Positions 825 to 37,060 of a DNA stretch of 64,000 nt are shown piece by piece. The position numbers and the translations under genes are program-made. Numbering within the stretch: position 1 is the first letter of the stretch; each line of letters begins with the position of its first letter. The stretch is taken from assembly GCA_030710605.1 (NCBI GenBank), contig CP092880.1, positions 10,444,208 to 10,508,207 of the forward strand. Direction: 5' to 3'. Below the pieces are notes generated by a model. It ran no database searches. It was not told the DNA's origin and saw nothing but the letters and a program-made list of their open reading frames with translations. Source of the stretch: Cordylochernes scorpioides. Its lineage: Eukaryota; Arthropoda; Arachnida; Pseudoscorpiones; Chernetidae.

Positions 825-2340
825 CATAGAAAAAAATCAATATATTTATATTTCAATAAAGTATGGTATTTCCGGAAACAATCCCCTAAATGCAGAGCTG
901 GTTTGTTACTACAGGTTTCACAATAAAACCCTGTTTGTTTTCTTCTACCAGGTGTGGATTGGGAAGAACAGACCTTGAAGGCAGTATTGATGTTGCATTG
1001 TAGAACTCTTTTCATGCTTGTTGAAGTTTTCATATGTTTTGGACATTCATTCTGCCATGGTTCCACAAGTTCTTTCACTAAATGTTTGCGATGATTTTCA
1101 TGGCTGCTTGGTGTGAGCCCATTATTTTCATGTTCTGGGTGTATATAATGTATGAGTTGAGAGTAACCATTACAAGGACCCATTAAAATAATTTTCTCCA
1201 CAATTTTAGCTTTTCTGAGAAAGTTGTAGGTTGCACAATAGTGGTCAGCAACATTCCCACTTCCCATATTCCAAGTGTATAATGGCAATTGGCTTTTGAA
1301 TTTCTACTGAGCCCCATCTAGCTGTGTTAAAGCTGTGTGAAATGGAGATTCAAGATGGACCCACACCCTTATCCTTCCAATAGAGTAAAAGTAAGTTTTT
1401 CTTTCTGAAAGCAAAAGTTTTCTACAATGAAAGTTGTGTTTTTTTTTCAGTTTCTGTGGAATTCCTCATCAGTTTGGCATATTGGTTAAGTTAGATATGG
1501 GCCTATAATGAAATTTGTGTAGAATCTATCCATGAAAATATGAAAACCGATTTTTTTATTGGATGGGGATTTTACTGGAGCATAGTGAGGAGATGAATCA
1601 CAGACCTTGAAGTTAATAGCAGATCTATTAGAGATGAAGTAGCCTAGATATGGCACAAAAGAATAGGTGTAACCTATTTGGCAGCAGCTAATACATATAC
1701 ACAAATCTCATTTAGCAGGCTTTGCGGGTTATAGATATTACACCTGATTCTTCCCTTGAAACCTACTGTTAGTTCATTAAATGCAAGACTTTGAACCACT
1801 GAAAATAATTCTGAACATTTTTGATTCAAAAGTCCATAAAATGTTTTATTTTTTGAGCTCTTGTTGAAATCGGCCTAGGATTAGCGGTATTGATATGGAG
1901 CATAAAAGAAATTTGTTTGAAATGATTTTTTTGTGAAAATTACTGAGAAAAATGACATTTTTATAAAATCTTTGAGACCAGTAGTGTCATCTATTGAAGA
2001 GAGAGGTATAATTTTCATATTGAGAATGCAACCATGGAATGCTAGAAATTCATTCACAACGGCGTCAGTCTAATCACTGAAAAAAAAAAAAAAAAAGATT
2101 TTTTAAATTGCAATTTTAGTGGTATTTTTTCTCTTTTGCATATCTATTAGTCTCCTGGTAATTAATTTCAATGAATTAGCTGTATATATAAAATAGCCTG
2201 AAATTTTAAATTGTCTACCATAATATAAGTTGGCCTAACTGCAGGCAGCAAATCTGCTGATCATTTTGGGAAATATCAGAAAAAAATGTCTGGCTCTTCA
2301 AGTTGTTCCCTTGATTCTTCAAATTTTTAAATTTCAGTAG
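825..2340 (-). pseudogene. piggyBac-like transposase relic (copy 1)
   Basis: Decayed piggyBac-family transposase on the minus strand. The C-terminal piece (about 825-1275) reads ...CSSQSTPGRRKQTGFYCETC...LHLGDCFRKYHT, the Cys-rich zinc finger at the end of piggyBac transposases, preceded by the NVADHYCATYNFLRKAK region. A second piece at about 1490-1700 carries GYTYSFVPYLG and FHIFMDRFYTN, which match the core around the second catalytic Asp. Frames are broken between pieces, so it is inactive. The part from 1459 on recurs at 18999. The part below 1459 does not, so the block boundary falls inside this element. Confidence 0.7.
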
Positions 2341-2482
2341 CTTGGGAACTAATATCTTTTATCAGAGAATCAGAAAGAACACTTTCAATTGATGAAGAAT
2401 CAAAGAGGATATTTAGAGTGTGACAAAGTAAAGGCTATGTTGGGAAAAAAAAAAAAGAGATAAAATGCAAGTAAAATAAGTA

Positions 2483-4962
2483 CACCTATCCCCCGATTTA
2501 CATGGCTCTTGTTTTACACGTTTTCGCTTTTACACGGTTTTCCAAATATATATATTTTTTTGTTTTTATCGCACTATACTAAATGCTACTGTGATTGAAC
2601 ACATGCGCTGTGTACACATCTCACGAGGAATCCCGAGCTTATGTGCTGACTACACTTTTGGCCATAGATATGGCCCAGCCACTTTGCCAGCAAAACACCT
2701 CTTTGGCAGATTGTCAAGATTCCATTAGATCCCGTGTGGATCTCATGGAATAAAGTCCGCCCTGGACTGACGAGGGCCATCAGCCCGAAACCATGGTCTT
2801 CAGGTGGACGCTTTTCAGTTTGCCAAAGCTGGTGTTGTGGCTTTGTCACCGACCCGAGGCCGCTAGTTGCGGCGACGGTCAATAGATGGCGTCTGTTTTA
2901 GACGTCTATTTTGACGGGAGAGGCGACCCTTGTCTCTTTAGATCATTTTCCTCCCGGCAAAATTTCCATCTATATTTTGGCCATAGATATGGCCCAGCCA
3001 CTTTGCCAGCAAAACACCTCTTTGGCAGATTGTCAAGATTCCATTAGATCCCGTGTGGATCTCATGGAATAAAGTCCGCCCTGGACTGACGAGGGCCATC
3101 AGCCCGAAACCATGGTCTTCAGGTGGACGCTTTTCAGTTTGCCAAAGCTGGTGTTGTGGCTTTGTCACCGACCCGAGGCCGCTAGTTGCGGCGACGGTCA
3201 ATAGATGGCGTCTGTTTTAGACGTCTATTTTGACGGGAGAGGCGACCCTTGTCTCTTTAGATCATTTTCCTCCCGGCAAAATTTCCATCTATATTTTGGC
3301 CATAGATATGGCCCAGCCACTTTGCCAGCAAAACACCTCTTTGGCAGATTGTCAAGATTCCATTAGATCCCGTGTGGATCTCATGGAATAAAGTCCGCCC
3401 TGGACTGACGAGGGCCATCAGCCCGAAACCATGGTCTTCAGGTGGACGCTTTTCAGTTTGCCAAAGCTGGTGTTGTGGCTTTGTCACCGACCCGAGGCCG
3501 CTAGTTGCGGCGACGGTCAATAGATGGCGTCTGTTTTAGACGTCTATTTTGACGGGAGAGGCGACCCTTGTCTCTTTAGATCATTTTCCTCCCGGCAAAA
3601 TTTCCATCTATATTTTGGCCATAGATATGGCCCAGCCACTTTGCCAGCAAAACACCTCTTTGGCAGATTGTCAAGATTCCATTAGATCCCGTGTGGATCT
3701 CATGGAATAAAGTCCGCCCTGGACTGACGAGGGCCATCAGCCCGAAACCATGATCTTCAGGTGGACGCTTTTCAGTTTGCCAAAGCTGGTGTTGTGGCTT
3801 TGTCACCGACCCGAGGCCGCTAGTTGCGGCGACGGTCAATAGATGGCGTCTGTTTTAGACGTCTATTTTGACGGGAGAGGCGACCCTTGTCTCTTTAGAT
3901 CATTTTCCTCCCGGCAAAATTTCCATCTATATTTTGGCCATAGATATGGCCCAGCCACTTTGCCAGCAAAACACCTCTTTGGCAGATTGTCAAGATTCCA
4001 TTAGATCCCGTGTGGATCTCATGGAATAAAGTCCGCCCTGGACTGACGAGGGCCATCAGCCCGAAACCATGGTCTTCAGGTGGACGCTTTTCAGTTTGCC
4101 AAAGCTGGTGTTGTGGCTTTGTCACCGACCCGAGGCCGCTAGTTGCGGCGACGGTCAATAGATGGCGTCTGTTTTAGACGTCTATTTTGACGGGAGAGGC
4201 GACCCTTGTCTCTTTAGATCATTTTCCTCCCGGCAAAATTTCCATCTATATTTTGGCCATAGATATGGCCCAGCCACTTTGCCAGCAAAACACCTCTTTG
4301 GCAGATTGTCAAGATTCCATTAGATCCCGTGTGGATCTCATGGAATAAAGTCCGCCCTGGACTGACGAGGGCCATCAGCCCGAAACCATGGTCTTCAGGT
4401 GGACGCTTTTCAGTTTGCCAAAGCTGGTGTTGTGGCTTTGTCACCGACCCGAGGCCGCTAGTTGCGGCGACGGTCAATAGATGGCGTCTGTTTTAGACGT
4501 CTATTTTGACGGGAGAGGCGACCCTTGTCTCTTTAGATCATTTTCCTCCCGGCAAAATTTCCATCTATATTTTGGCCATAGATATGGCCCAGCCACTTTG
4601 CCAGCAAAACACCTCTTTGGCAGATTGTCAAGATTCCATTAGATCCCGTGTGGATCTCATGGAATAAAGTCCGCCCTGGACTGACGAGGGCCATCAGCCC
4701 GAAACCATGGTCTTCAGGTGGACGCTTTTCAGTTTGCCAAAGCTGGTGTTGTGGCTTTGTCACCGACCCGAGGCCGCTAGTTGCGGCGACGGTCAATAGA
4801 TGGCGTCTGTTTTAGACGTCTATTTTGACGGGAGAGGCGACCCTTGTCTCTTTAGATAATTTACCCTGTCAATGCATTTTATTTTTATTTCTGTGTACAT
4901 CTATCCCCCGATTTACATGTTTTCTCAGGAACGTATCTACCGTGTAAATCGGGGGATAGGTG
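2483..4962. mobile_element. pogo/Tigger-like MITE containing satellite (copy 1)
   Basis: Both ends carry the inverted repeat CACCTATCCCCCGATTTACA, flanked by TA dinucleotides that fit a TA target duplication. A third, internal copy of the terminal motif lies near 4900. Without the 2.2-kb satellite inserted inside it, this is the same ~275-bp element as at 20335-20608. No transposase is encoded. Assignment to the pogo/Tigger side of Tc1/mariner rests on the TA duplication and the C-rich end. Confidence 0.6.
2655..4856 (-). repeat. 319-bp satellite array, about 6.9 units
   Basis: Seven near-identical units at an exact 319-bp period; open frames recur at 2938, 3257, 3576, 3895, 4214 and 4533. 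Copy 2 lacks the array entirely and reads straight from tgactaca to taattta, so the insertion sits between A and T with no target duplication. Read on the minus strand it starts TCTAAAG and ends just after the hairpin GGCCATAtcTATGGCC plus AAAAG, which recalls a Helitron-type non-autonomous element with an internal satellite. The 87-codon frame repeats only because the units are nearly identical. Confidence 0.8.
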
Positions 4963-5308
4963 TAACATATTGAGGTGAGAGGGAATAGGGATTGATTCAA
5001 CAAGATTCTCACGTGATTTCCAGAAAACGTGACACTGGCGCTGGACTCCCCTACCCCTTGTTTTTGTTTACATATACATCTGGCTAGGCATCCGAACACA
5101 AGCCACTGACAGTGGCTTGCTGACTGATAAGGGTTAAGGCAGTATGGTTGAATAAACTGGTAAAACATCTAAGAGAGTTTACTACCAATGAGACAGGACC
5201 TTCCCAATTTTGTCCATTGCAGTAAGGACAGTAGAAAGTGATTTTATTTTGAAAATAAAAATTCATGCTGTGCATATAGCTCTATATTTATTGTATGTAA
5301 GTGGCTAC
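4963..5308. other. Intron 10, unassigned
   Basis: Unique intronic sequence between the satellite-bearing MITE and exon 10 (copy 1). It is also present in copy 2 at 20609-20953 with few changes. No gene or named repeat is visible. Confidence 0.45.
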
Positions 5309-5490
5309 CTGATAAAAGTCTGGCCAGGACTGAAGTCCGAGGCCACAGACTTGGCAGCCATGAGCAGTCTCTGGTCCTGCTGCCGCTGACCCCGTACACA
5401 GATGAAGTCCCGAGCTGACACCAGAGCCTGGGTCTGTGCCGGACAGGCCAGGTGGATCACGTTGGTGTGCTCATCTATGGTGTTCAGTAC
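5309..5490 (-). CDS. STARD3: STARD3 exon 10 (copy 1): START core
   Basis: The exon has 182 nt, with acceptor tgtgtgcag before VLNTIDEHTN and donor gtagcc after TFIR. It encodes 60 residues plus two bases, including ALVSARDFICVRGQR. That aligns with the conserved S-x-RDF-V-x-VR stretch of STARD3/StAR START domains. It starts in phase 0 and ends two bases into a codon that exon 11 completes. Copy 2 at 20954-21135 is the same length and differs by rare, apparently silent changes. Confidence 0.85.
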
Positions 5491-5787
5491 CTGCACACAT
5501 TCCTTCAGTCCTAGCTGATCCTCTCTAACACAATCAGGTCATCTCTCATCATCCTTCCACTCTGCATGTGTAATAACCTCTTTATAAGAACAGTGTTTAT
5601 AAAAGCAACTTTGTAATATAATTCTAAAGTCCTAAATTTTAAGTTCCAAGTCTTTTAATGGTGATTATACCAACATTTGGTCCCAAGTGGCTTTTACTGA
5701 ACAACTGGGTGAATGAACAAATTAATTTACCCCTAGGACTATATATTCCGACTTTAGACAACCCTCTACCCTTGATCCATTCATGTA

Positions 5788-6421
5788 TCTTCTTCTTTCT
5801 TATCTCCACTCAATCATATTAGAGAATCAAATTGTGAACTTGATGGTGTCTGTTTGACAACCATCATGACTGGGTGAAGTAGAATGCATCTGCCTTTGTC
5901 ATTAAGACTGGGAGCACTACTCAGTGGCAGGCCGACTTAGCTCCTAAAGAAATGGCCACCTCTGACATGTGGAACAGACGCCATGCGCAGCCGCTCCTAA
6001 CATGAAGTACAAACGCTGCTCATCCTGTATCCCTGGATTAGGAGCCCTTACAGGGTACTATCAGCCGGGCCAGCTGAGCCCAGGTTTTTTAGTGAGCTTG
6101 TTACTGCTCCCCCTCCTCCTTTTTCATCCGGGCTTGGGACCGGCAAGGGCGGAGTTTGCCTTTGTTATTAAGACTGGGAGCATTACTCAATGGCAGGCCG
6201 ACTTAGCTCCAAAAGAAATGGCCGCCTCTGACATGAGGAACAGACGCCATGCGCAGCCGCTCCTAACATGAAGTACAAACGCTGCTCATCCTGTATCCCT
6301 GGATTAGGAGCCCTTACAGGGTACTATCAGCCAGGCCAGCTGAGCCCAGGTTTTTTAGTGAGCTTGTTGCTGCTCCCCCTCCTCCTTTTTCATCCGGGCT
6401 TGGGACTGGTAAAGGCGGAGT
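5788..6421 (-). mobile_element. SINE-C tandem dimer (copy 1 only)
   Basis: Two consecutive SINE-C bodies, one 3'-truncated, share a single 12-bp target duplication TCCATTCATGTA at 5776-5787 and 6422-6433. Copy 2 has the empty site near 21860. The transcript strand is minus, because the GATAAGAAAGAAG tail lies at the low-coordinate end. SINE-C is defined by its repeated body (multiple copies in this window) and by a 3' end shared with LINE-2 at 60425. Confidence 0.8.
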
Positions 6422-6639
6422 TCCATTCATGTATAAAACTGTATAACAACCTTATAATTATATATATTTCTGTCTTCAATTCTAGCCAAGCCGTCTTGTT
6501 CAACAACTTTTATCATTGCAGTCTGTAGAGATATTATTTGATGATATATATGAAAAGAAACACATTGCCAAAAGTTATTGTTACAAATCTTATCCATAAA
6601 TGGCAATTAAATTTATTTCAAGAACAAATTGGATTGTAA

Positions 6640-6762
6640 CAGTGAAAAACTTCTCAGTTGCCACAGCTGGTATTGTGATTTTGTCACTGACCCTAGTTTG
6701 CAGAGATGGTCAATAAGAAATGCTTAGTTTTTGGCATCCATTTTGACGAGAGAGGCGACATT
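6640..6762 (-). repeat. Diverged satellite monomer relic (copy 1)
   Basis: Resembles the 319-bp unit over its best-conserved part: cagttgccacagctggta, tttgtcactgaccc, gatggtcaata, ttttgacgagagaggcga. It is single copy and highly diverged, and occurs in both blocks (also 22491-22615). It shows that the satellite monomer existed as a dispersed repeat long before the tandem array formed. Confidence 0.6.
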
Positions 6763-6914
6763 TATTTTTATAAATACATTTTAATAACACATGGTTATGA
6801 CCACAAGAGTCCCAAGTGATGTTTTGATAATGAGGTTTGAATGTAATAAGACTTTGATAAAACTAAATAAGAAAGATTGAATTATAGATTTTTTTTGCAG
6901 GTTGTAATTATAAA

Positions 6915-7238
6915 TATTAATATATACAGTTATCAGCATCATAATCAATTCTTTCTTAATCAATTCTGTCACCGTTTGCTTTGTGAATGGAATAAATACC
7001 CAAATATGGCCATTTCTCATAACCATCGGTGGTTCAGTGGTAGAATGCTCGCCTGCCACGCGGGCGGCCCGGGTTCGATTCCTGGCCGATGCATTTTTTT
7101 TTTTTACAATTTTTAAATTTCATTTATATATTATACAAGAATGACATCCACGGCTCCAATTTATAATTGTAACGAATAGTATTTGAATAAAAGCATTTAA
7201 TCGGGTAAAACCTGGGCGTTGCCCGGGTCATTCGGCTA
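6915..7238 (-). mobile_element. RTE/tRNA-Gly chimeric SINE (family G, copy 1)
   Basis: On the minus strand it begins ACTAGCCGAATGACCCGGGC and GC-rich CGGGCAACGCCC, continues through an antisense tRNA-Gly module, and ends near ...CTGTATAT. The same ends occur at 40342, 51524, 39476 and 24068. The terminal sequences look like RTE-clade retroelement ends. Present in both block copies. Confidence 0.6.
7023..7093 (+). tRNA. tRNA-Gly(GCC)-like sequence, probably SINE head/pseudogene
   Basis: A cloverleaf fits with anticodon GCC, A box tggttcagtgg and B box GGTTCGATTCC, and a T run follows. The first acceptor pair is C-C instead of G-C, and the T stem has a G-T pair. It lies inside a repeated chimeric SINE, and related versions occur at 22880 and 24205. 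A functional gene is possible but less likely. Confidence 0.55.
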
Positions 7239-7269
7239 GTATAGATAGATAGGAGAGAGATGAACTCAC

Positions 7270-7368
7270 AGTGAGAGAGGAGATGAGGGACTTGAGAGGC
7301 TGGAGATTGGAGGGTCCCACAAACTGGAACACCTGCATCACTTGCTCCAGGCTGGCTTCAATGGTCCC
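7270..7368 (-). CDS. STARD3: STARD3 exon 9 (copy 1): START, divergent helix/strand
   Basis: The exon has 99 nt in phase 0-0, between acceptor gagtggtgcag and donor gtgagt. It encodes 33 residues: GTIEASLEQVMQVFQ, then FVGPSNLQPLKSLISSLT. Length and position match the STARD3 segment between the first START strands and the VLN/ILQ strand, but sequence similarity is weak. The identification rests mainly on frame, splice sites and conservation in both copies. Copy 2 has Arg where this copy has Met (residue 11 of the exon). Confidence 0.7.
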
Positions 7369-7371
7369 CTG

Positions 7372-7433
7372 CACCACTCAACTCCATGGAATTTGTGTAA
7401 TACCTACACAAGTGAATAAGAAACAACAACAGT
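7372..7433 (+). mobile_element. LINE-1/SINE-B 3' tail fragment (copy 1)
   Basis: Short stretch ccatggaatttgtgtaat through gaataagaaacaacaac, the common 3' end of SINE-B and LINE-1 with no body. It lies just upstream of exon 9 (minus sense). The same fragment is at 24530-24587 in copy 2. Confidence 0.6.
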
Positions 7434-7482
7434 TCAACTCCATTTCTATCCATTCCATTTCTGAACCATAAACCCCCCAAGA

Positions 7483-7938
7483 TTACCTGTTGAAGCCGCT
7501 GATGTGCTAGCAAAAAAAGGCACAAAAGAACCCTTGCCACAGAAAAATAAACTTACTTTTAAAGAAATAGAAACAATAGCCAAAACAAAAATAAACAACA
7601 ACTGGAGGATCCCACCTAAGCACAGTTGGTACAGTGGAGTGAACCCAGGAGGAGCTCTGAACATCAGAAATAGACAGCATCAAACAACACTAACAAGATT
7701 TAGAACAGGCCATCTCAAGCCATTGAAGATAGAAAATAATAACAAAATCTACCCCACTTGCCCAAAATGTAGCTTGGCACCTGCAGCTCCAGAACACATT
7801 TTGGCTTGCATTAGATGCACTAAACACGACCTTTGGGAGAGGCCGCTGCTCATCATAAAACAGCTCAAGGAGCATGAACTCATGGAATTCGTGTAATCTT
7901 TACACAAGGGGATAAGAAATAACAAACAACAACAACAA
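7483..7938 (+). mobile_element. LINE-1 3' fragment: RNase H end and zinc knuckle (copy 1)
   Basis: 5'-truncated non-LTR retrotransposon. The open frame starts in the RNase H tail (EAADVLAKKGTKEPLP), continues RFRTGHLKPLKIENN, and carries the knuckle CPKC...PEHILAC before ending ...HELMEFV. The 3' end GGGGATAAGAAA plus CAA repeats is shared with SINE-B. The short duplication ACCTGTTG may be its target site. Both block copies carry it, so the insertion predates their split. Confidence 0.8.
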
Positions 7939-8178
7939 CCTGTTGTTTTGATAAAGGTGGATGGTAGCTCTCTGTGAGGATGGAATAGTGACACTCACAA
8001 TGTTACAGTAGGGAGATAGTACTGAATGGCACTAGTCACCTAGCACATACTGCTTTTTATTTCCTAAAAATATGGTCGTCAAAATAAATGTGAGTTTATT
8101 TTAGAATCAAGGAGGAATAATCCCTCTTTCATTAACATGACTGGATGGAAATCATTATACCTATAGCAGAAAGAATTG

Positions 8179-10158
8179 GATCCTACCTCATTTTCTATGG
8201 AAGTGAATAAAGGAGAAGGATCTACCCCTTCTCTTAATGTAAGCAAATGGGAATCATGGTACCTAAAAGAAATAATTGGGAAATTACCCCGTTTTCTATG
8301 GAAGTGAATGAAGGAGGATGACCTACCCCATTTTCTATGGAAGTGAATGAAGGAGGATGACCTACCCCGTTTCTATGGAAGTGAATGAAGGAGGATGACC
8401 TACCCCGTTTTCTATGGAAGTGAATGAAGGAGGATGACCTACCCCATTTTCTATGGAAGTGAATGAAGGAGGATGACCTACCCCGTTTCTATGGAAGTGA
8501 ATGAAGGAGGATGACCTACCCCGTTTTCTATGGAAGTGAATGAAGGAGGATGACCTACCCCATTTTCTATGGAAGTGAATGAAGGAGGATGACCTACCCC
8601 GTTTCTATGGAAGTGAATGAAGGAGGATGACCTACCCCGTTTTCTATGGAAGTGAATGAAGGAGGATGACCTACCCCATTTTCTATGGAAGTGAATGAAG
8701 GAGGATGACCTACCCCGTTTCTATGGAAGTGAATGAAGGAGGATGACCTACCCCGTTTTCTATGGAAGTGAATGAAGGAGGATGACCTACCCCATTTTCT
8801 ATGGAAGTGAATGAGGGAGGATGACCTACCCCGTTTTCTATGGAAGTGAATGAAGGAGGATGACCTACCCCATTTTCTATGGAAGTGAATGAGGGAGGAT
8901 GACCTACCCCATTTTCTATGGAAGTGAATGAAGGAGGATGACCTACCCCGTTTTCTATGGAAGTGAATGAAGGAGGATGACCTACCCCGTTTTCTATGGA
9001 AGTGAATGAGGGAGGATGACCTACCCCATTTTCTATGGAAGTGAATGAAGGAGGATGACCTACCCCATTTTCTATGGAAGTGAATGAGGGAGGATGACCT
9101 ACCCCCGTTTTCTATGGAAGTGAATGAAGGAGGATGACCTACCCCGTTTTCTATGGAAGTGAATGAAGGAGGATGACCTACTCCATTTTCTATGGAAGTG
9201 AATGAAGGAGGATGACCTACCCCCGTTTTCTATGGAAGTGAATGAGGGAGGATGACCTACCCCGTTTTCTATGGAAGTGAATGAAGGAGGATGACCTACC
9301 CCGTTTTCTATGGAAGTGAATGAAGGAGGATGACCTACCCCATTTTCTATGGAAGTGAATGAGGGAGGATGACCTACCCCGTTTTCTATGGAAGTGAATG
9401 AAGGAGGATGACCTACCCCATTTTCTATGGAAGTGAATGAGGGAGGATGACCTACCCCGTTTTCTATGGAAGTGAATGAAGGAGGATGACCTACCCCATT
9501 TTCTATGGAAGTGAATGAGGGAGGATGACCTACCCCGTTTTCTATGGAAGTGAATGAGGGAGGATGACCTACCCCATTTTCTATGGAAGTGAATGAAGGA
9601 GGATGACCTACCCCATTTTCTATGGAAGTGAATGAGGGAGGATGACCTACCCCCGTTTCTATGGAAGTGAATGAAGGAGGATGACCTACCCCATTTTCTA
9701 TGGAAGTGAATGAGGGAAGATGACCTACCCCGTTTTCTATGGAAGTGAATGAAGGAGGAGGACCTACCCCGTTTTCTATGGAAGTGAATGAGGGAGGATG
9801 ACCTACCCCATTTTCTATGGAAGTGAATGAGGGAGGATGACCTACCCCGTTTTCTATGGAAGTGAATGAGGGAGGATGACCTATCCCGTTTTCTATGGAA
9901 GTGAATGAAGGAGGAGGACCTACCCCATTTTCTATGGAAGTGAATGAGGGAAGATGACCTACCCCGTTTCTATGAAAGTGAATGAGGGAGGATGACCTAT
10001 CCCGTTTTCTATGGAAGTGAATGAGGGAGGATGACCTACCCCGTTTTCTATGGAAGTGAATCAAGAAAGAGAAAAACCACCTCTTCATATAAGTAAATGG
10101 GAATCATGGTAGAGAGCAGAAAGGACCTATCCCAGTAAGTGAATCAAGGAGGACCTAC
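8179..10158. repeat. 39-bp minisatellite (copy 1), about 45 units
   Basis: Tandem units of 39 bp (cctaccccgttttctatgga...) run up to the donor of exon 8. Minus-strand units begin GTAGGTCATCC, nearly the exon 8 donor GTAGGTCCTCC. Because 39 is a multiple of 3, a 13-residue repeat frame stays open for 329 codons at 9099-10088; this is incidental. Units of 38 bp recur at 8361, 8477, 8593 and 8709, giving a 116-bp higher-order repeat. Degenerate longer units flank both ends. Confidence 0.9.
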
Positions 10159-10308
10159 CACAAACTTGAAGGACTTCTCCATCCTGGAGAGCCTCATGCT
10201 CTGGATGATGAGTCCCTTGTGGATCCTCTCAGTCTTCCAGTTCTCAGAGACCAGGAGCTCCAGTCCCAAGTGTATGTTCTGCTCCAGTACCTGCTGGAGT
10301 GCCTGATC
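10159..10308 (-). CDS. STARD3: STARD3 exon 8 (copy 1): start of START domain
   Basis: The exon has 150 nt in phase 0-0, with acceptor tgtatgcag and donor gtaggt. It encodes 50 residues, DQALQQVLEQNIHLG... then SENWKTERIHKGL... to KSFKFV. It aligns with the STARD3 helix VVDQILAQEENWKFEK and the next two START strands. The following intron (minus sense) opens directly into the minisatellite made of this donor sequence. The copy 2 equivalent is 27549-27698. Confidence 0.88.
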
Positions 10309-10344
10309 CTGCATACACTTCATTGTTTTCAGAGGTACATTATA

Positions 10345-10860: not shown

Positions 10861-10909
10861 TCAGATTTACAAGACAGCTTTTACAGTACTGTAGTATGGT
10901 TGAACATAC

Positions 10910-24520: not shown

Positions 24521-24529
24521 CTGCACCAC

Positions 24530-25333: not shown

Positions 25334-27548
25334 GAACCTACCTCATTTTCTATGGAAGTGAATAAAGGAGAAGGACCTACCCCTTCTCTTAATGTAAGCA
25401 AATGGGAATCATGGTACCTAAAAGAAATAATTGGGAAATTACCCCGTTTTCTATGGAAGTGAATGAAGGAGGATGACCTACCCCATTTTCTATGGAAGTG
25501 AATGAAGGAGGATGACCTACCCCATTTTCTATGGAAGTGAATGAAGGAGGATGACCTACCCCATTTTCTATGGAAGTGAATGAAGGAGGATGACCTACCC
25601 CGTTTTCTATGGAAGTGAATGAAGGAGGATGACCTACCCCATTTTCTATGGAAGTGAATGAAGGAGGATGACCTACCCCGTTTTCTATGGAAGTGAATGA
25701 AGGAGGATGACCTACTCCATTTTCTATGGAAGTGAATGAAGGAGGATGACCTACCCCGTTTTCTATGGAAGTGAATGAGGGAGGATGACCTACCCCGTTT
25801 TCTATGGAAGTGAATGAGGGAGGATGACCTACCCCGTTTTCTATGGAAGTGAATGAAGGAGGATGACCTACCCCATTTTCTATGGAAGTGAATGAAGGAG
25901 GATGACCTACCCCATTTTCTATGGAAGTGAATGAGGGAGGATGACCTACCCCATTTTCTATGGAAGTGAATGAGGGAGGATGACCTACCCCATTTTCTAT
26001 GGAAGTGAATGAAGGAGGATGACCTACCCCGTTTTCTATGGAAGTGAATGAGGGAGGATGACCTACCCCGTTTTCTATGGAAGTGAATGAAGGAGGATGA
26101 CCTACCCCGTTTTCTATGGAAGTGAATGAAGGAGGATGACCTACCCCGTTTTCTATGGAAGTGAATGAAGGAGGATGACCTACCCCATTTTCTATGGAAG
26201 TGAATGAAGGAGGATGACCTACCCCGTTTTCTATGGAAGTGAATGAGGGAGGATGACCTACCCCGTTTTCTATGGAAGTGAATGAAGGAGGATGACCTAC
26301 CCCGTTTTCTATGGAAGTGAATGAAGGAGGATGACCTACCCCGTTTTCTATGGAAGTGAATGAAGGAGGATGACCTACCCCGTTTTCTATGGAAGTGAAT
26401 GAAGGAGGATGACCTACCCCGTTTTCTATGGAAGTGAATGAAGGAGGATGACCTACCCCATTTTCTATGGAAGTGAATGAAGGAGGATGACCTACCCCCA
26501 TTTTCTATGGAAGTGAATGAAGGAGGATGACCTACCCCATTTTCTATGGAAGTGAATGAGGGAGGATGACCTACCCCGTTTTCTATGGAAGTGAATAAAG
26601 GAGGATGACCTACCCCGTTTTCTATGGAAGTGAATGAAGGAGGATGACCTACCCCGTTTTCTATGGAAGTGAATGAGGGAGGATGACCTACCCCATTTTC
26701 TATGGAAGTGAATGAAGGAGGATGACCTACCCCGTTTTCTATGGAAGTGAATGAAGGAGGATGACCTACCCCGTTTTCTATGGAAGTGAATGAAGGAGGA
26801 TGACCTACTCCATTTTCTATGGAAGTGAATGAAGGAGGATGACCTACCCCGTTTTCTATGGAAGTGAATGAGGGAGGATGACCTACCCCGTTTTCTATGG
26901 AAGTGAATGAAGGAGGATGACCTACCCCGTTTTCTATGGAAGTGAATGAAGGAGGATGACCTACCCCATTTTCTATGGAAGTGAATGAGGGAGGATGACC
27001 TACCCCGTTTTCTATGGAAGTGAATGAAGGAGGATGACCTACCCCATTTTCTATGGAAGTGAATGAGGGAGGATGACCTACCCCGTTTTCTATGGAAGTG
27101 AATGAAGGAGGATGACCTACCCCATTTTCTATGGAAGTGAATGAGGGAGGATGACCTACCCCGTTTTCTATGGAAGTGAATGAAGGAGGATGACCTACCC
27201 CATTTTCTATGGAAGTGAATGAGGGAGGATGACCTACCCCGTTTCTATGGAAGTGAATGAAGGAGGATGACCTACCCCATTTTCTATGGAAGTGAATGAG
27301 GGAGGATGACCTACCCCATTTTCTATGGAAGTGAATGAAGGAGGATGACCTACCCCATTTTCTATGGAAGTGAATGAAGGAGGATGACCTACCCCGTTTC
27401 TATGGAAGGGAATGAGGGAGGATGACCTACCCCATTTTCTATGGAAGTGAATCAAGTAAAAGAACCCACCTCTTCATATAAGTAAATGGGAATCATGGTA
27501 GAGAGCAGAAAGGACCTATCCCAGTAAAGTGAATCAAGGAGGACCTAC
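25334..27548. repeat. 39-bp minisatellite (copy 2), about 50 units
   Basis: Same unit as in copy 1 but a different array length and variant order; mostly 39-bp units, fewer 38-bp ones. An incidental frame of 370 codons is open at 25389-26501. On the minus strand each unit includes GTAGGTCATCC, like the exon 8 donor at its right edge. Confidence 0.9.
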
Positions 27549-27698
27549 CACAAACTTGAAGGACTTCTCCATCCTGGAGAGCCTCATGCTCTGGATGATG
27601 AGTCCCTTGTGGATCCTCTCAGTCTTCCAGTTCTCAGAGACCAGGAGCTCCAGTCCCAAGTGTATGTTCTGCTCCAGTACCTGCTGGAGTGCCTGATC
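27549..27698 (-). CDS. STARD3: STARD3 exon 8 (copy 2)
   Basis: 150 nt, phase 0-0, identical in frame and boundaries to 10159-10308; encodes the first START helix and strands (SENWKTERIHKGL). Confidence 0.88.
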
Positions 27699-27742
27699 CT
27701 GCATACACTTCATTGTTTTCAGAGGTACATTATAACATCTTC

Positions 27743-27840
27743 ACTTAGGGAGAGGCCGATGCTTATCATAAAAACTCTCGAGGAGCATGAACTAATGGAA
27801 TTCGTGTAATCTTTACATCAAGGGGATAAGAAACAACAAC
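27743..27840 (+). mobile_element. LINE-1 3' end fragment (copy 2)
   Basis: Counterpart of 10345-10450. Confidence 0.75.
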
Positions 27841-28061
27841 CTCTTCAATTTAATCACATATCCCTTGTTGAATACAGTGGTTCCATTGTAATTGGGTATT
27901 TGGATCAAGACTTTTTTTTTAAATTACCAATTGTTTATTGAAACTAATGCTTGCTTTCACAGGAATTCCCAGGATCTCTGTTCTCAAGCTAGGGTAATTT
28001 ATAACTATGTAGATATTACAACATTTACTAGACCTTAAACCATCAAGAGAAATCTGAAATA

Positions 28062-28225
28062 GAGTAGAACCCCTCTTTCTGAAGAACAACACCTTATTTC
28101 AGAGCCATAGAATCCTTTAGAGAGATATATCCTCATACTGGAGAACAGCTAATTTGTAAAAATGAACATTTTGGCTCTGAAAACTGTCCCTTGTATAGAG
28201 GTGTATAGTAGTAGCAATGTCTGCT
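28062..28225. mobile_element. pogo-like MITE remnant (copy 2)
   Basis: Counterpart of 10668-10860, starting agagtagaacccctctttct. Confidence 0.45.
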
Positions 28226-28314
28226 AATGGAGGTTCTTCTGTAATGGACATCAGATTTACAAGACAGCTTTTACAGTACTGTAGTTTGGTTAAATGTAAG
28301 ATGGTTGAACATAC

Positions 28315-28394
28315 CTGTGGGGAAAGTGTGCTGATCACATTGACTTGTACAGTTGGGCAAAGATCTTCATTATTGAGGCTTTCAGTGTCGCTGG
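28315..28394 (-). CDS. STARD3: STARD3 exon 7 (copy 2): acidic linker
   Basis: 80 nt, acceptor ttatgtttcag, donor gtatgt. Completes the split Ala codon and reads SDTESLNNED... to LSPQ, bridging exons 6 and 8 in frame. Confidence 0.8.
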
Positions 28395-29453
28395 CTGAAA
28401 CATAACACCATGGTGGATGTCAATGGAATGGTGGAAATGGAAATACAAATGTAGCCACACCAATATGGTATTTAGATTACAGCTTTACTTACATAAGATC
28501 TGAATGTCAAACTAGAGTTGAAGTCACTGGGAAGGTTCACACAATTGATAAGCCAGAACCTCCCAATTCTTTTACAGTTCATCAATTGTACATAGAGAGA
28601 AATTTATCCATTATTTTAAAAATGAATGAATAAATTAACACTGAATGTTTCTATCCTCAACATACTTTAGTCTGATGTTGGTAGCACAATAATGGTTCAA
28701 CCCCTTTAATAAGCTTGTCTACTATAATGCTGAGCATACAAACTATTTTTTTCCCTTCATTTTAAGTTGAATAGACCAGGTACAATCAACAATTCTTCTA
28801 ATCTTGGTTTTAATGGTATCAGGAAAGTGTAGAGCACAATTCAGTAATACCAAAGATGATGTTGATGACTTTTGATGGTCTTTAACAGATGATGGCATCA
28901 GAACAGGTTTGTCAACGAATTTGAGGTGTTTTAAAATTACAAAATATTTTGTAATTTTAAAAGTTTTTAACAATTTCATCATGAATAGATTATAGGATAT
29001 AGAGAAGTATAAACGACTATTTTACATGAAGTCCCTGCAGTTATCCCGATGGAGAAATAATTTGAATAAAAAGAAACTCATTGTGAGAAAATATTTTGTA
29101 ATTTTAAAAGTTTCTCACAATTTGATCATGAATTTGAGGTGTCCAAGAACTGGTGTGAGTACTTCTGTATAACAGACATTAATTGGGGATATCAGTTGGG
29201 GTTCCATTGTGCAGAAATTGTAGGTTTAGAGAGTGTAGTGAATGGAGAGGTTCTGGCAGTATCTATTTCAGTTCTTACTTCTGTGCTTACAGAGTACACT
29301 ACTGGGTTAAAAAATAATACAAATCAGAAAGTGCAGCGGAAGCAAGACAATGACACCATGATTAAGGTAGAGTCAAGGTAAGGTGAATGGTAAGGGAGAC
29401 AAATATCCCTGGTCTACTGCAATGTAATCAACAGCCAACATGAGCTATGATAA
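28395..29453. other. Intron 6, unassigned (copy 2)
   Basis: Collinear with 10990-11872 plus the sequence after the copy 1 foldback. No gene visible; uninterrupted target of the F1 insertion lies near 29270. Confidence 0.45.
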
Positions 29454-29455
29454 TA

Positions 29456-30778
29456 CAAGGTGCGTTCATTAATTTCCAGGACTGGTTAAAAAATAAAATA
29501 AATAAAAAAGCTAAAGAAAAAAAATTTTATACAGAGTTAGATATTGGACATTCGACCACACCTGACTGAAAGCACGAGTCTCGTGGCGCACGCGCCGATC
29601 TAAAAATAGAACAAAACAACTTCCTTGTAAGGTTCGCATTTCTAATTTTAAAATGGCCATTTTCGAAGAGCAGAGAATCTGCATTAAGTTTTGTTTTAAT
29701 TTGAAAAAAGTGCTACTGAGATGTATGAATTGATTAAAGAAACTTTTGGCGATGCAGCTTTATCCCATTCAAGAACTTTTGAATGGTTTTTACGCTTCCA
29801 AAAAGGTCGGGAAAAGGTAAACGATGATCAGCATACTGGGCGTCCAAGATCATTATGTTGCGAGGAAAACAAGCTCAAAATAAAGGAATTAATTAAATCT
29901 AACAGAAGAATTTCTATTAAAGACTTATCTTCAGAGACTGGACTATCTGTAGGACTGTGTCATCAAATAGTAACAAAAGATTTGGACATGATCCGGACAT
30001 CTTCAAAATTTGTTCCCCGGATTCTAACAGAGGAACAAAAGGAGGTTAGAATGGATGTCTGCAAAAACATGGTTGAAATGACTCAGACCGATCCAGAATG
30101 GATGCAAAAAATCATTACCGGGGATAAGACATGAGTATATCAGTATGACCCGGAAACCAAACGTCAATCCAGCCAATGGATTGAAAGAGGGGAACCGAAA
30201 CCCAAAAAGGCAAGATTTACAAAATCCAAAGTCAAGACAATGCTTGCTACATTTTTTGATATTAATGGTTTGGTTCACCATGAATTTATTCCTTTCGGAC
30301 GTACAATTAATCAAGAGGTTTATTTGGGGATAATGAGGCGCTTAAGGGAGGCAGTGCGCCTTAAAAGACCTGAAAGATTGCAAAACAATGACTGGATACT
30401 TCACGTCGATAATGCGCGGCCGCACACAGCCCATGTTGTTTTGCAGTTCTTGGCCAAGCATTCAACCATACAGATCCCTCTCATCCACCCTATTCCCCCG
30501 ACTTAGCCCCCAATGACTTTTTCCTCTATCCTAAATTGAAAATGAAGTTAAAAAGAAGGAAATTTGACAACGTTGATATGATACAAGCTGAATCGAAGGC
30601 AACCTTGAGGAACCTCTCAAAAAGTGATTTTATCTCCTGCTTCGACAATTGGAAAAAAAGATGGAACAGGTGTATCGAGGCAGGAGGGGCATATTTTGAA
30701 AAATATTAAATTAGTTTTTTTATTTGTTTTATTTTTCAAAGATACAGAGCAGTCCTGGAAATTAATGAACGCACCTTG
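29456..30778 (+). mobile_element. mariner element, 1323 bp (copy 2 only)
   Basis: Terminal inverted repeats CAAGGTGCGTTCATTAATTT, flanked by TA at 29454-29455 and 30779-30780. Copy 1 has an uninterrupted TATATA site near 12233. The transposase gene inside is broken. Size and ends fit the mariner family. Confidence 0.92.
29653..30709 (+). pseudogene. mariner transposase, inactivated
   Basis: Mariner-family transposase (DD34D type), usually about 340 residues. The N-terminal helix-turn-helix region includes FGDAALSHSRTFEWF and HTGRPRS; the catalytic region has GDKT (first Asp), HVDNARPHTA (second Asp) and a later DLAPND-type motif (third). I see at least three lesions: a frame break in the A run at about 29704-29709, an in-frame TGA at 30132-30134 where a Trp codon is usual, and a frame shift near 30465-30480. 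The end reads ...GGAYFEKY. It cannot make a working transposase. Confidence 0.88.
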
Positions 30779-30962
30779 TATATATATATGGGAAAAATAA
30801 CCTTGAACTAAAAGTAAGATATGTTGGACCACAACTATCTGATGTCAAAATATCATCTCTCAGACACATGAAAAGGTTAATCCTTTGTCATAACCTATAA
30901 TCCTCTAGAATCGTGAGGTGATATAGAAGATATATAAGTAAGAGCAACATTAAGAGACCTAC

Positions 30963-31064
30963 CAGGAGGGGAATAGAAATCATCATCTTCACTCATGATG
31001 GAAGGAGCTCCCAGCATCTGAGGAGCAGGAGATCTCCCCGGTACATTTTGGTTGATGTACTGGG
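30963..31064 (-). CDS. STARD3: STARD3 exon 6 (copy 2): linker with FFAT-like core
   Basis: 102 nt with the same boundaries as 12415-12516. Reads QYINQNVPGRSPAPQMLGAP, then SIMSEDDDFYSPP. The two residue changes from copy 1 lie in the low-complexity linker; the SEDDDFYSPP core is identical. Confidence 0.85.
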
Positions 31065-31187
31065 CTGAAACACCTCCAACTTAACCAAGAGGGGAAGACA
31101 GGTTACTAGAGAGAGATACACATAGAAAGCAATAATGCACCATTCATATATAGCAAATGAAACATTAGACGCGAATGTTACTTTCAT

Positions 31188-31639
31188 TGTTGTTGTTGTT
31201 GTTGTTTCTTATCCCCTTGTGTAAAGATTACACGAATTCCATGAGTTCATGATCTCATGGAATGGGATGTAGGGGTGCAGCTTTAATTGATCATGGCACC
31301 ATGATCCAGGCACACTTTGGTGAAAGTCTGACTTTGCCTGTAGTTTGAGGCCATTCCTAACATGAAAGCAGACGCCTTTGCTACCGACTCTAACATGAGT
31401 ACAGACGCAGCTCCTCCGTATCCCTGGAGTGGGACCCTTGCTGAGGTCCATCAACTGGGTCAGTTGAAGTCAGGATTTTTAAAGAGGTCTACTCCTCTTC
31501 TAACAATGCTGCTGTTGGTCTGCGATTGCTTATTTGTCAGAGTTATTCTGCTTGTTTCGCAGCTAGCCTTCATATCTGAAGATCGTTCCCCTATCCGCCA
31601 CTTGGGGACGCGCCCTATAGCAGTCAGCTCTGCCAAGGG
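31188..31639 (-). mobile_element. SINE-B (copy 2)
   Basis: Counterpart of 12632-13073 with the same ATGTTACTTTCAT duplication (31175-31187, 31640-31652). Confidence 0.85.
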
Positions 31640-31948
31640 ATGTTACTTTCATACAAAAATCAAATTTCTACCATCCTTACTGCAATGAAAAAATATGAGC
31701 CAAGCCCTCCCAACATTTTCTCATTGTAGCAAGGACAGTAGATTATGTGTAAAAGAAACATTGGTGTCTTAATGTTGTCATTTGCTAGATACACATATAA
31801 TCACATCCTTCTACATAACCTCTGTACGGAATGACTTTCTTCACACTTTTGATATAAAACCTTTTTGAAATCCTTAAAAAAATATTTATTTTTCTTAAAG
31901 AGTCCATGTTTACCTTGTTCTTAAGTAGGTTTTTATAAGCGATAATTG

Positions 31949-32140
31949 TCACATTTTGTAGTGCTATCTCAAATACAGAAACCATGGTCTCCATGTGGGT
32001 GTTCTGAATTTGTCAAAGCTGGTGTTGTGGCCAAATCTGCAGTTTGCAGAGTCCATTAATACACTCATGTACAAAACTTAAGGAAGTGGAAAGTCTTTTA
32101 TATCGATGGTCGTCTGTTTTTTGAAGGAGAGACAGGCAAT
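31949..32140. repeat. Diverged satellite-monomer relic (copy 2)
   Basis: Counterpart of 13389-13600. Confidence 0.5.
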
Positions 32141-32474
32141 TTTGTTCACACTTGGTTATCTTGTTTGTCTTCAATGAAGGTCACTGTGTATCAAATATCT
32201 TTCAGTTATTGCCTGAATCCTGATAGGCTAAAGAGGTACAACTTCCTTAAATTTTGTCCATGAGCATATAGTTTGATGTCCTTTTGCCAAGAGGGATGAC
32301 TAAGTTTTATGATGAGAGGCCACCTACTTGAGACACCGGATGTAGTCATCAGTGATGTGTATCTGATTCCTAAGAAGAGAAATACTTCTAACAAGGTTGA
32401 TGGAGGAATGGTGTAAACCATTGGCTGTCAACCACTCCAGATCAAATCTTGTATCGAGTACTTTTTTTCTGATT

Positions 32475-32655
32475 CAATGGCCCTGATTATTGTAAAAGTC
32501 AGTGAGTGCATGTAACAAAACAGGGCTCTGGCATCTTGTAAGTGAAAAGTCGAACTGTTCACTACATATGTAGACAAATATTGTTGTATTTACAGGAAAA
32601 GACAATGATTTACAACCCACCATAATGGCCTGTAGCATGTGTGTGTACTTGTAAA
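32475..32655 (+). mobile_element. Diverged SINE-A body (copy 2)
   Basis: Counterpart of 13900-14075. The LINE-1 fragment that follows in copy 1 is absent. Confidence 0.55.
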
Positions 32656-32822
32656 AAATACTTATTGTAGAGAGAGTGATAACTCACAATATTATAATAA
32701 AAAGAAAGGAAAATACATGTATGATGATATTTAAAGTGTGCATATAACTAAAATAACAACTTTATGAAAATAAAGGTTGCCTCTCCTGTCAAAACTACAT
32801 ACCATCTATTGACCATCACTCT

Positions 32823-33168
32823 TCTTCTTTCTTATCTCCACTCAATCATATTAGGGTATCAAGCTTTGACAACCATCATGACTGGGTGAAGTAGAATGCT
32901 TTGTCATTAAGACTGGGAGCACTACTCAGTGGCAGGCCAATTTAGCTTCGAAAGAAATGGCCGCCTCTGACATGAGGAACAGACGCCATGTGCAGCCGCT
33001 CCTAACATGGAGTACAAACGCTGCTCATCCTGTATCCCTGGGTTAGGAGCCCTTACAGGGTACTATCAGCTGGGTCAGCTGAGCCTAGGTTTTTTAGTGA
33101 GCTTATTACTGCTCCCCCTCCTCCTTTTTCATCCTGGCTTGGGACCGGCAAAGGCGGAGTTCCATCAC
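32823..33168 (-). mobile_element. SINE-C (copy 2)
   Basis: Counterpart of 14672-15010; tail side cttcttctttcttatctcca. Confidence 0.75.
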
Positions 33169-33404
33169 TAGCAGCCTCTAGTCAGTCTGACAAATAAATC
33201 ATCAATATCCTTCAGGTAAAATTTCTATCTATAAAGTTACATATTATTACATATAAGATTCATAAAATGTTTACCTCCAAGGTAGTTAAAAGATGAAAAC
33301 TGAAATTTTAGGTCATTCCAAAAATTGAGTCTCAACTCCTAACAACTCTTGCAAAAGCCTTGCGATGATGATTGGATATTTTAATTAAACTACTTTAAAT
33401 CAAC

Positions 33405-33885
33405 AACAACAACAAAAAAAAACTTTATTAAGACACTATTGTCTTACAAGGGGGATTCCCCCTAAAAGGTTATATATGTACATGAGTGAGGAGGAAAAGC
33501 AATTTAGAGGGGGAGCAATCAGCCGTTGTCTGTGGAGTTGAGCACTTCTTCTCTCATTTTATCAATCGCCTTGAAAAATTTTAAATATTTATAAACAAAT
33601 GTTTTATCCAGCAGGAGAGCAGTAAAGATTTTATATACATGTTGTTCATTGTAGTGAGTTGGCACCGAAATTTTGCGAATTTCCAGTCTCTTTTCATGTA
33701 GGAATGGGCAATGGAATAGATAGTGGACCAAATTGTCTTGGATGTCAACATTGCAGAAGTAGCAATTTAAAGGGTCGCTGTTCCAAAATCCCGTGATATC
33801 CTCGCGGAAAAGTAGCCATAGAATCCTTTGAAGGGCTATAAATCGTTTAATTTTCAAAGGGAGGTTTGATAGTAAGTAGTCTTCC
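33405..33885 (-). mobile_element. LINE-4 3' fragment (copy 2 only)
   Basis: 5'-truncated LINE on the minus strand. Its frame reads MEDYLLSNLPLKIKRF..., then a C-terminal knuckle CYFCNVDIQDN...HYLFHCPF, ending ...NSTDNG with an A/CAA-rich tail. Flanked by the 17-bp duplication AACTACTTTAAATCAAC (33388-33404 and 33886-33902). Copy 1 shows the empty site near 15237. A second copy lies at 47180-47590. Confidence 0.85.
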
Positions 33886-33922
33886 AACTACTTTAAATCA
33901 ACCAATTATAATTCAAGACTTC

Positions 33923-34140
33923 TCCAAGGTAATAAGACCAAATCCAAATAAATAAATAGTGTGTGACGTTTCAGTAACAGCGTTGTTACCATCTTCAGAC
34001 AAAAGTACTGAAAAGTACCATTCAGTACTTTTGTCTGAAGATGGTAACAATGCTGTTACTGAAACGTCACACACTATTTATTTTTTTGGATTTGGTCTTA
34101 TTACCTTGTGTTTATAATCTATAATCCAAATTGTGCCTTA
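33923..34140 (+). mobile_element. Foldback element F1 (copy 2)
   Basis: Counterpart of 15274-15488. Plus-strand core GTCTGAAGATGGTAACAATG, hairpin partner, then GAAACGTCAC near 34035-34070. Confidence 0.7.
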
Positions 34141-34397
34141 TAATTCAAGACTTCCTATGATTCTACTGTTTTCAAATCTCCCAACCAAGTTACCCTACTT
34201 TAATTTACTCAGCTATAATTCCATAATTACTTTAATTCAACCAGAAGCACCTTCCCTTTGGGGTGTTTCCTTTTGAATTAGAGTCAGCATTGATATATAA
34301 CCAGTTAAATATTGAGGTAGTTAATTTGGCTAGATGTAAAAAAGGTTTGAATTAAGGGAAGTGTTGTATCATAGCCGGTTGTATTTAAGAGGTATTA

Positions 34398-34560
34398 TAC
34401 AGTAGAACCTCTCTGAAAGGACACCTAGTAGCATAGTCAAAGTGTCCTTTAGAGAGAGGTATCCTTTTTAACAGATTTGTTAATTAGAAAAAAGATAATT
34501 TTGGCAATGAAAACTGTTCTTTTTTAGAGAGATGTCCTCTAGTCAGAGGACATCTCTGCC
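34398..34560. mobile_element. pogo-like MITE (copy 2)
   Basis: Counterpart of 15752-15918. Confidence 0.6.
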
Positions 34561-34864
34561 GACTATGAGGCAAGATCAATGTCTTTCCCAAATGCCAGAG
34601 CTAGAGCTGCAAAGTTCTAGTCCTCCCGCTTTCTCCCTGCCTCCTGACCTCCGCGAACCCAATCCGGCCTAACCTGCCTCTTCCCTAACAGAGATCCTGT
34701 TCCAAGCCTCTCTAGCCTGGTCATAGTGGTTTTATATGTTCCAATTTACGCAGCCATTGGGGGCTCAAAAATCATTTATTTTGGTTAGCAGCCCCATAAA
34801 TAAAGATATTTCCTCTAGTCAGAGTGGGGGTTCAAGTGTGAAAGTTGTTTAATAAGAAGGTTAC

Positions 34865-34991
34865 CCAGGAGCTTGGCTGCTCGGCGTTCACTGGGCAGCA
34901 CCTTGATGTCGAGGAACCAAGCCTCAGCCCAGGCCAGGACAAAGGAGAGAATGAGCAGGATCACTGGGATGAGCACTGCACTGGATGACCA
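34865..34991 (-). CDS. STARD3: STARD3 exon 5 (copy 2): MENTAL helix 4
   Basis: 127 nt with the same boundaries and coding as 16209-16335. Acceptor ggtgtggcag, donor gtaacc. It follows exon 4 (39242) directly in frame, so in the single-gene reading this is the physically linked exon 5. Confidence 0.9.
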
Positions 34992-35228
34992 CTGCCACAC
35001 CCACCAGCAGTGTAGATGACGGTATTACACTGGGTTGCCTAGTTACGACTAGACCCATCACATGGAGTTTACTTATTTGACTGACTTTGAAAACTCTATC
35101 AACAAAAAAAATAGGTCTATGTAGTAAGAAAAACATGCAATGTTTGAAAAATCAACATCAGAATACATTGATAATAAAAAAATAAAATAAGAAGAGGATT
35201 TGTAAGGTACCTGAGAAAAGTAAAATAA

Positions 35229-35542
35229 TTTTTTTTTTTTTTGCTTATCCTTAGTACACGTGGTGCAAGCCATGATAATCATGGTGGGTAGAAAAAGGAA
35301 ACTGCTTTTACTGTAAGTGCACCACATGTCTACACATGTGAAAAGCAGTTCGACTTTGCACTTACAAATGTGTCAGAGCCCCGTTTGGTAACTTGCACTC
35401 GCTGGTGAGGTTGGACTTTTGCAAGAATCAGGGGCCATTGGAGCATTTCTTTTTTAAATCAGAAAAAAAGAACCTAATGCGGGAATTGAACTCAGGTCGT
35501 AGCAGTTGAAAACCAACAGTTTAGTCCACCGACCCCCCAGCA
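35229..35542 (-). mobile_element. SINE-A (copy 2)
   Basis: Counterpart of 16581-16887. Confidence 0.8.
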
Positions 35543-35631
35543 AAATAAATAAAATCTTTCAACTAGTGTGTACAAATAACCAAACAGGGCTCAGACACCA
35601 CCTTGTAAATGTTGAGTTGCTACATGTGTAG

Positions 35632-37060
35632 ATACAGTAAAACACCTCACTATAGCAATCCTTAGATGGAACTGAACTTTTGGTTTCTTAAGTCATGGTT
35701 CACTATATATGGTATGTCTTTGGTATCTTCTTAGCATCTTGATATCTGGCAATTGCTCCTATTGTAAAGAGGAGGTCTTCTATATCCCAGGTCCATTTTA
35801 GCATGGTTTTACCTCATGTGGTATACTTGGATTAAAAACAGTCACACCACCCTAACTACATTGATGGCTATGTACCAGGTTTCTTAAGTCATGGTTCACT
35901 ATATATGGTATCTTTAATGTCTTTGGTATCTTCTTAGCAAAGATATCTGGCAATTGCTCCTATTGTAAAGAGGAGGTCTTCTATATCCCAGGTCCATTTT
36001 AGCATGGTTTTACCTCATGTGGTATACTTGGATTAAAAACAGTCACACCACCCTAACTACATTGATGGCTATGTACCAGGTTTCTTAAGTCATGGTTCAC
36101 TATATATGGTATGTCTTTGGTATCTTCTTAGCATCTTGATATCTGGCAATTGCTCCTATTGTAAAGAGGAGGTCTTCTATATCCCAGGTCCATTTTAGCA
36201 TGGTTTTACCTCATGTGGTATACTTGGATTAAAAACAGTCACACCACCCTAACTACATTGATGGCTATGTACCAGGTTTCTTAAGTCATGGTTCACTATA
36301 TATGGTATCTTTAATGTCTTTGGTATCTTCTTAGCAAAGATATCTGGCAATTGCTCCTTTTGTAAAGAGGAGGTCTTCTATATCCCAGGTCCATTTTAGC
36401 ATGGTTTTACCTCATGTGGTATACTTGGATTAAAAACAGTCACACCACCCTAACTACATTGATGGCTATGTACCAGGTTTCTTAAGTCATGGTTCACTAT
36501 ATATGGTATCTTTAATGTCTTTGGTATCTTCTTAGCAAAGATATCTGGCAATTGCTCCTATTGTAAAGAGGAGGTCTTCTATATCCCAGGTCCATTTTAG
36601 CATGGTTTTACCTCATGTGGTATACTTGGATTAAAAACAGTCACACCACCCTAACTACATTGATGGCTATGTACCAGGTTTCTTAAGTCATGGTTCACTA
36701 TATATGGTATCTTTAATGTCTTTGGTATCTTCTTAGCAAAGATATCTGGCAATTGCTCCTATTGTAAAGAGGAGGTCTTCTATATCCCAGGTCCATTTTA
36801 GCATGGTTTTACCTCATGTGGTATACTTGGATTAAAAACAGTCACACCACCCTAACTACATTGATGGCTATGTACCAGGTTTCTTAAGTCATGGTTCACT
36901 ATATATGGTATGTCTTTGGTATCTTCTTAGCAATTCCTCCTATTGTAAAGAGGAGGTCTGTTATATCCCAGGTCCATTTTAGCATGGTTTTACCTCATGT
37001 GGTGTACTTGGATTAAAAACAGTCACACCACCCTAACTACATTGATGGCTATGTACCAGG
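35632..37060. repeat. About 200-bp tandem array (copy 2), 7 units
   Basis: Same basic unit as the copy 1 array (tcttaagtcatggttcacta at about 35683, 35882, 36084, 36288, 36480, 36682, 36884). Most units carry an extra catcttgatatctgg or aaagatatctgg segment, so the period is about 200 bp. Only the last unit has the 181-bp form that dominates copy 1. Confidence 0.9.

Follow-up and report, generated by a model that had tools for sequence, protein, structure and literature searches.

The apparent doubling of exons 5 to 10 of a STARD3-type gene in Cordylochernes scorpioides as a probable result of interleaved haplotypes

Heterotype false duplications, an already known kind of artefact, arise when contigs of divergent haplotypes are misplaced in a primary assembly (Rhie et al. 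2021, PMC8081667). They can pass for duplications of exons, genes, or segments, as exemplified by GABRG2 (4 of 10 exons), and the highest heterozygosity given for the set of that study is 1.6%. Marks of false duplications include gaps between the members of a pair, half depth, discordant linked reads, and one-copy k-mers (Ko et al. 2022, PMC9516828). Here, we analyze a stretch of 64,000 nucleotides from the pseudoscorpion C. scorpioides, hereafter the window, which corresponds to positions 10444208-10508207 of sequence C18 (CP092880.1) in an assembly of 2.62 Gb in 24 sequences. The window carries a STARD3-type gene on its minus strand, and a first-pass annotation had described exons 5-10 of this gene as present twice, on both sides of a run of N. 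Judged from the sequence of the region, this block is almost certainly a heterotype false duplication, that is, an assembly error and not a biological duplication.

The locus resembles the case described by Rhie et al. (2021) in that divergent haplotypes would have been misplaced as separate contigs and can be read as a duplication. It differs from it in two respects: both haplotypes alternate here along the scaffold in four pieces whose cuts are exact to the base, and the substitution divergence of 3.1% exceeds the 1.6% maximum of that study. Such a base-exact interleaving of four pieces was not met in the available part of that article (PMC8081667), which is no claim of its absence from print. 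As in the false exon or gene gains of Ko et al. (2022, PMC9516828), part of the exons of a gene is doubled. Their diagnosis is based on half depth, linked reads, k-mers, and gaps, whereas ours is based on gaps and on the complementarity of contig ends. The gene itself is similar to STARD3 (MLN64) in combining MENTAL and START domains, but its model is incomplete, with exon 1 partial and two exons, 7 and 9, not found.

Contig order and complementarity of contig ends

Self-BLASTN of the window revealed a collinear chain in direct orientation, from position 1459 paired with 18999 through position 18295 paired with 37061. The 11 chained blocks align copy 1 with copy 2 at 93.9% identity, gaps counted, over 12.75 kb, and the longest single matches between the copies reach 3.6 kb at 96%, far beyond chance. 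Copy 1 continues past 18295 to 18898 inside its 181-bp array, up to the only N run of the window, which is 100 bases long. The alignment of copy 2 begins at the first base after this gap, and its own array ends at 37061. The first-pass annotation was therefore accurate in describing two collinear blocks of approximately 17-18 kb that meet at the N run, copy 1 stopping within an unfinished array and copy 2 starting at the first base after the gap. Four contigs, L, M, R, and S, are involved:

C18:10419372-10435113: contig L, assigned to haplotype A
C18:10435214-10463105 (window part 1-18898): contig M, assigned to haplotype B, delimited from gap positions; its left part matches L and its right part R
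1458-1459 of the window: cut point of the other haplotype on M, where the end of L and the start of R fall at adjacent bases
1459-18898 of the window: copy 1, haplotype B allele, from self-BLASTN and chain
18899-18998 of the window: 100-N scaffold gap separating M from R
18999-37061 of the window: copy 2, haplotype A allele of copy 1, from self-BLASTN and chain
C18:10463206-10525298 (window part 18999-64000): contig R, assigned to haplotype A, delimited from gap positions
From C18:10525399, read as far as 10568207: contig S, assigned to haplotype B

The annotation had favored a false duplication of two diverged alleles on two grounds, the meeting of the copies at the gap and a break of the reading frame between them. 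Both are true but neither is decisive, because a real tandem duplication with its junction in the gap would look alike and because hidden exons could restore the frame. As the window alone cannot decide, 200 kb more around it were read, 264 kb in all, and it is evidence from outside the window that supports the false duplication. Six 100-N gaps are present in these 264 kb. We take such runs to be joins between contigs; besides M and R, they separate L from M and R from S.

Collinear pairs were directly observed across these three gaps. Contig M is matched by L over its left part and by R over its right part. The match with M takes up the left part of R, and the remainder of R pairs with S over the extent of S that was read (to C18:10568207). 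The last base of L corresponds to position 10445665 of M (window 1458), and the first base of R to position 10445666 of M (window 1459). When joined, the end of L and the start of R align to M without any gap at the cut, small indels being found elsewhere in the 300 bases compared. Similarly, the joined end of M and start of S align to R in the middle of a unit of a tandem array, again gapless at the cut; the 181-bp array of copy 1 resumes in phase at the first base of S (C18:10525399). As the neighbors adjoin on M and the join of M and S is gapless, L plus R reads as one haplotype and M plus S as the other. The order along the scaffold is A B A B, that is, p p' q' q, with an assembly gap between the members of the duplicated pair.

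A real intragenic tandem duplication of exons 5-10, with its junction falling in the gap, was rejected on the basis of this contig order and of the base-exact complementarity of the contig ends. The blocks are intact in the examined exons, collinear, and in direct orientation, as such a duplication predicts, and contigs ending inside a duplicated unit would give the same picture at the gap. However, it would produce the order p q p q with the copies meeting at one new junction. We instead observed p p' q' q, the ends of L and R fitting together on M without a base lost or shared. Second copies of exons 1-4 and 11-12 are also present, on other contigs, the passage from exon 10 to exon 5 is out of frame, and the three contig pairs are equally diverged. 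We thus regard a real tandem duplication as very improbable.

The order p p' q' q would also result from a real complex rearrangement, in which template switching during replication had reinserted a copy into its own middle. This event would nevertheless have to coincide with 100-N gaps at all three joins and land precisely in the middle of the sequence from which it was copied, and S would require another event of the same age. These coincidences make it even less credible than the tandem duplication.

In the heterotype false duplication that we retain, the sample would have carried two haplotypes of the locus, differing by approximately 3.1% substitutions and by many transposon-sized insertions. 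The assembler would have retained both as separate contigs, haplotype A (L and R) and haplotype B (M and S) each being cut with no base lost at the cut. Scaffolding, presumably on contact or linkage data, would then have strung the pieces together as L, M, R, S, separated by 100-N gaps. With pieces of both alleles in succession, exons 5-10 would seem to occur twice in the reference.

The STARD3-type gene and the divergence of its alleles

Four stretches of the MENTAL profile each match two places in the region. The spliced exons 1-6 of haplotype A match the Pfam MENTAL domain (PF10457) with 190.5 bits (cut-off 22) over 174 of its 176 positions. The later exons match the START domain (PF01852) with 26.1 bits (cut-off 22) in a gene model that lacks one or more exons, and the exon-by-exon search of the genome with the START profile listed no START match at this locus. 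Of five PDB matches, the top three are chains of STARD3/MLN64. The peptide used for Pfam and PDB matching includes some probably intronic codons at the start of exon 12. The exons identified, all on the minus strand, are given below in the order of transcription, with window coordinates and, where it lies in another contig, the position of the allele:

53435-53608, minus strand: exon 1 (part), MENTAL domain; allele at C18:10550298-10550125
44901-44987, minus strand: exon 2; allele at C18:10537054-10536968
42570-42647, minus strand: exon 3; allele at C18:10533317-10533240
39242-39295, minus strand: exon 4, ending in phase 0; allele at C18:10526939-10526886
34865-34991, minus strand: exon 5 of copy 2, starting in phase 0
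16209-16335, minus strand: exon 5 of copy 1
30964-31062, minus strand: exon 6 of copy 2 (whole codons), containing DDDFYSPP
12415-12516, minus strand: exon 6 of copy 1
27549-27698, minus strand: exon 8 (provisional number) of copy 2
10159-10308, minus strand: exon 8 (provisional number) of copy 1
20956-21135, minus strand: exon 10 of copy 2 (whole codons), START domain, with 2 more bases before the donor
5309-5490, minus strand: exon 10 of copy 1, ending 2 bases into a codon
352-436, minus strand: exon 11 in M; allele (whole codons) in L at C18:10430587-10430504

Of the six exons described as doubled, four (5, 6, 8, and 10) were identified in both blocks, whereas comparison and inspection by eye failed to find exons 7 and 9. 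The doubling also extends beyond the block first described, with second copies of exons 1-4 on the right-hand contig and of exons 11-12 on a contig to the left. R and S share exons 1-4, M and R share exons 5, 6, 8, and 10, and M and L share exons 11 and 12. The gene is therefore doubled only in the sense that every identified exon occurs once per haplotype.

Phases established from the DNA and the translations agree with the frame argument of the first-pass annotation. The boundary between exons 4 and 5 falls in phase 0 on both sides, whereas exon 10 leaves two bases that are completed by exon 11. Spliced to another exon 5, which begins with a whole codon, exon 10 would throw the frame off, and the doubled exons do not read in frame as a tandem duplication would have it. 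We observed that exon 6 encodes SEDDDFYSPP (window 12415-12516 and 30964-31062, minus strand), which we take to resemble the phospho-FFAT motif of STARD3.

The reading frames are intact in both haplotypes. Ten exon pieces, totaling 397 codons, were compared, and neither a stop nor a frameshift distinguishes the haplotypes. They differ by 8.5 synonymous changes (pS 3.1%) and by at most 5.5 nonsynonymous changes (pN 0.60%). The latter count is an upper bound, because the open frame of exon 12, which contributes 2.5 of the 5.5 nonsynonymous changes, probably begins a few codons inside the intron. No change of function is suggested.

The three contig pairs show equal divergence. Substitutions amount to 3.06% between L and M (9,256 bp, all six chained blocks), to 3.23% between M and R outside the arrays (8,996 bp, 9 of 11 blocks, arrays trimmed), and to 3.13% between R and S (22,704 bp, 15 of 25 blocks), single blocks spanning 1.3 to 6.1%. 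These counts exclude the tandem arrays, two M-R blocks of 148 and 113 bp, and ten R-S blocks of 78 to 371 bp with BLAST identities of 77.8 to 98.1%. Variation at the level of haplotypes thus separates the copies in all three pairs, and the 3.06-3.23% would correspond to the heterozygosity of the sample. In addition, ten length differences of at least 150 bp set M and R apart in approximately 17 kb, as read from the alignment chain; they include the 1,323-bp insert of R and the 319-bp array of M.

Divergence of such size is high for two alleles of one animal. Together, the 3.1% substitutions and the ten length differences of at least 150 bp in approximately 17 kb would fit haplotypes coming from different individuals of a pool, or subgenomes of a hybrid or polyploid, and not from one diploid. 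However, a 1,288-bp unique stretch of R (10520704-10521991) is found at exactly two long places, and there is no sign of four copies. Among its 13 matches listed in the 2.62-Gb assembly, R itself included, the only other long one is located at C18:10572730-10573986 (95%, same strand), the other 11 being short. The R-S chain extrapolates to a start at 10572461, compared with approximately 10572699 observed; the two are 0.24-0.27 kb apart, as computed after the match was found. We consider a pooled or hybrid origin unlikely, though the least unlikely of the alternatives. It overlaps with the explanation that we retain, and the duplication is false either way. In the latter explanation, both haplotypes would derive from one diploid individual.

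A further possibility is that the haplotypes at this locus are unusually old, for instance introgressed or kept by selection, and do not reflect the average of the genome. The 3.1% substitutions and the ten large length differences in 17 kb, together with proteins that are nearly unchanged, point in this direction. We nevertheless hold this proposal to be improbable, more so than a pooled or hybrid origin.

Local pairs elsewhere in the assembly

Local pairs of conserved genes suggest that false doubling is not confined to the STARD3-type locus. In two of the six multi-exon CCT/Cpn60 loci, one set of five matched stretches is present in duplicate at a distance of 100-165 kb; among the 45 matches, eight groups that were single or sparse are excluded from this count. 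One pair, on C6, is direct with its members approximately 163 kb apart, and the other, on C2, is inverted with its members just over 100 kb apart. Many kinesin stretches also seem to fall in local pairs, which may include real paralogues. The same stretches of the kinesin motor domain are found at six places within the first 0.9 Mb of C1.

Several observations weigh against the interleaving of two haplotypes or limit its reach. First, the cut between M and S sits in a tandem array, where an accidental in-phase join has a chance of approximately 1 in 181. Second, only three of the six gaps in the 264 kb are flanked by such pairs, when direct matches of at least 500 bp are counted; across the other three, 1,708 bp are shared at the leftmost gap and none at the next two. 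Inverted and dispersed matches are also present among the leftmost contigs and were taken for repeats by assumption. Third, in the search for alleles of contig K (C18:10400634-10419271) and of the contig preceding it (C18:10350824-10400533), the queries matched dispersed repeats, and a search of the genome with the last 1 kb of R matched only dispersed repeats besides R itself. Fourth, local pairs (less than 200 kb) of dispersed repeats are uneven, with 6, 2, 6, and 1 pairs among 40 places in each of four sets, only the best 40 of 1,783 to 8,282 candidates being scored in each. Random placing would give 0.12 pairs per 40 places, fewer than observed, and one of the six pairs in the first set is the L-M pair itself. 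This pairing is weak evidence, as repeats cluster for other reasons. At C13:56764698-56799340, a START exon occurs twice, 31 kb apart; the flanks are 90-97% identical, and the two are separated by a run of 8,445 N. A second START gene may be affected here by the same artefact.

Repeats of the region and consequences for the reference

The two alleles differ by several arrays and inserts, with the following window coordinates:

2656-4862: 319-bp tandem array of M (copy 1), 6.9 units, absent at the corresponding place of copy 2
17027-18898: 181-bp tandem array of copy 1, 10.2 units, cut mid-unit at the contig end
29456-30778: 1,323-bp transposon-like insert of copy 2, with inverted ends beside TA; copy 1 is without it at approximately 12232
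35682-37061: equivalent of the 181-bp array in copy 2, 7.0 units of approximately 201 bp, complete on its right side

A 39-bp array, at 8285-10065 and 25440-27456, differs between the alleles in its number of units (45.7 versus 51.7). Further along the window, a 121-bp unit is repeated 16 times at 61881-63807 with 94% matches, and open frames run through the units. The open frame just before this array (61752-61970) shares its peptide and may resemble the end of a retrotransposon protein. Outside the window, C18:10361175-10372795 is occupied by an 11.6-kb array with a spacing of approximately 70 bp.

Left uncorrected, the reference could give rise to a false gene model with doubled exons, to false paralogues, and to an inflated genome size. 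Any assembly can be tested, without recourse to reads, for contigs on which the two neighbors directly adjoin, as was done here.
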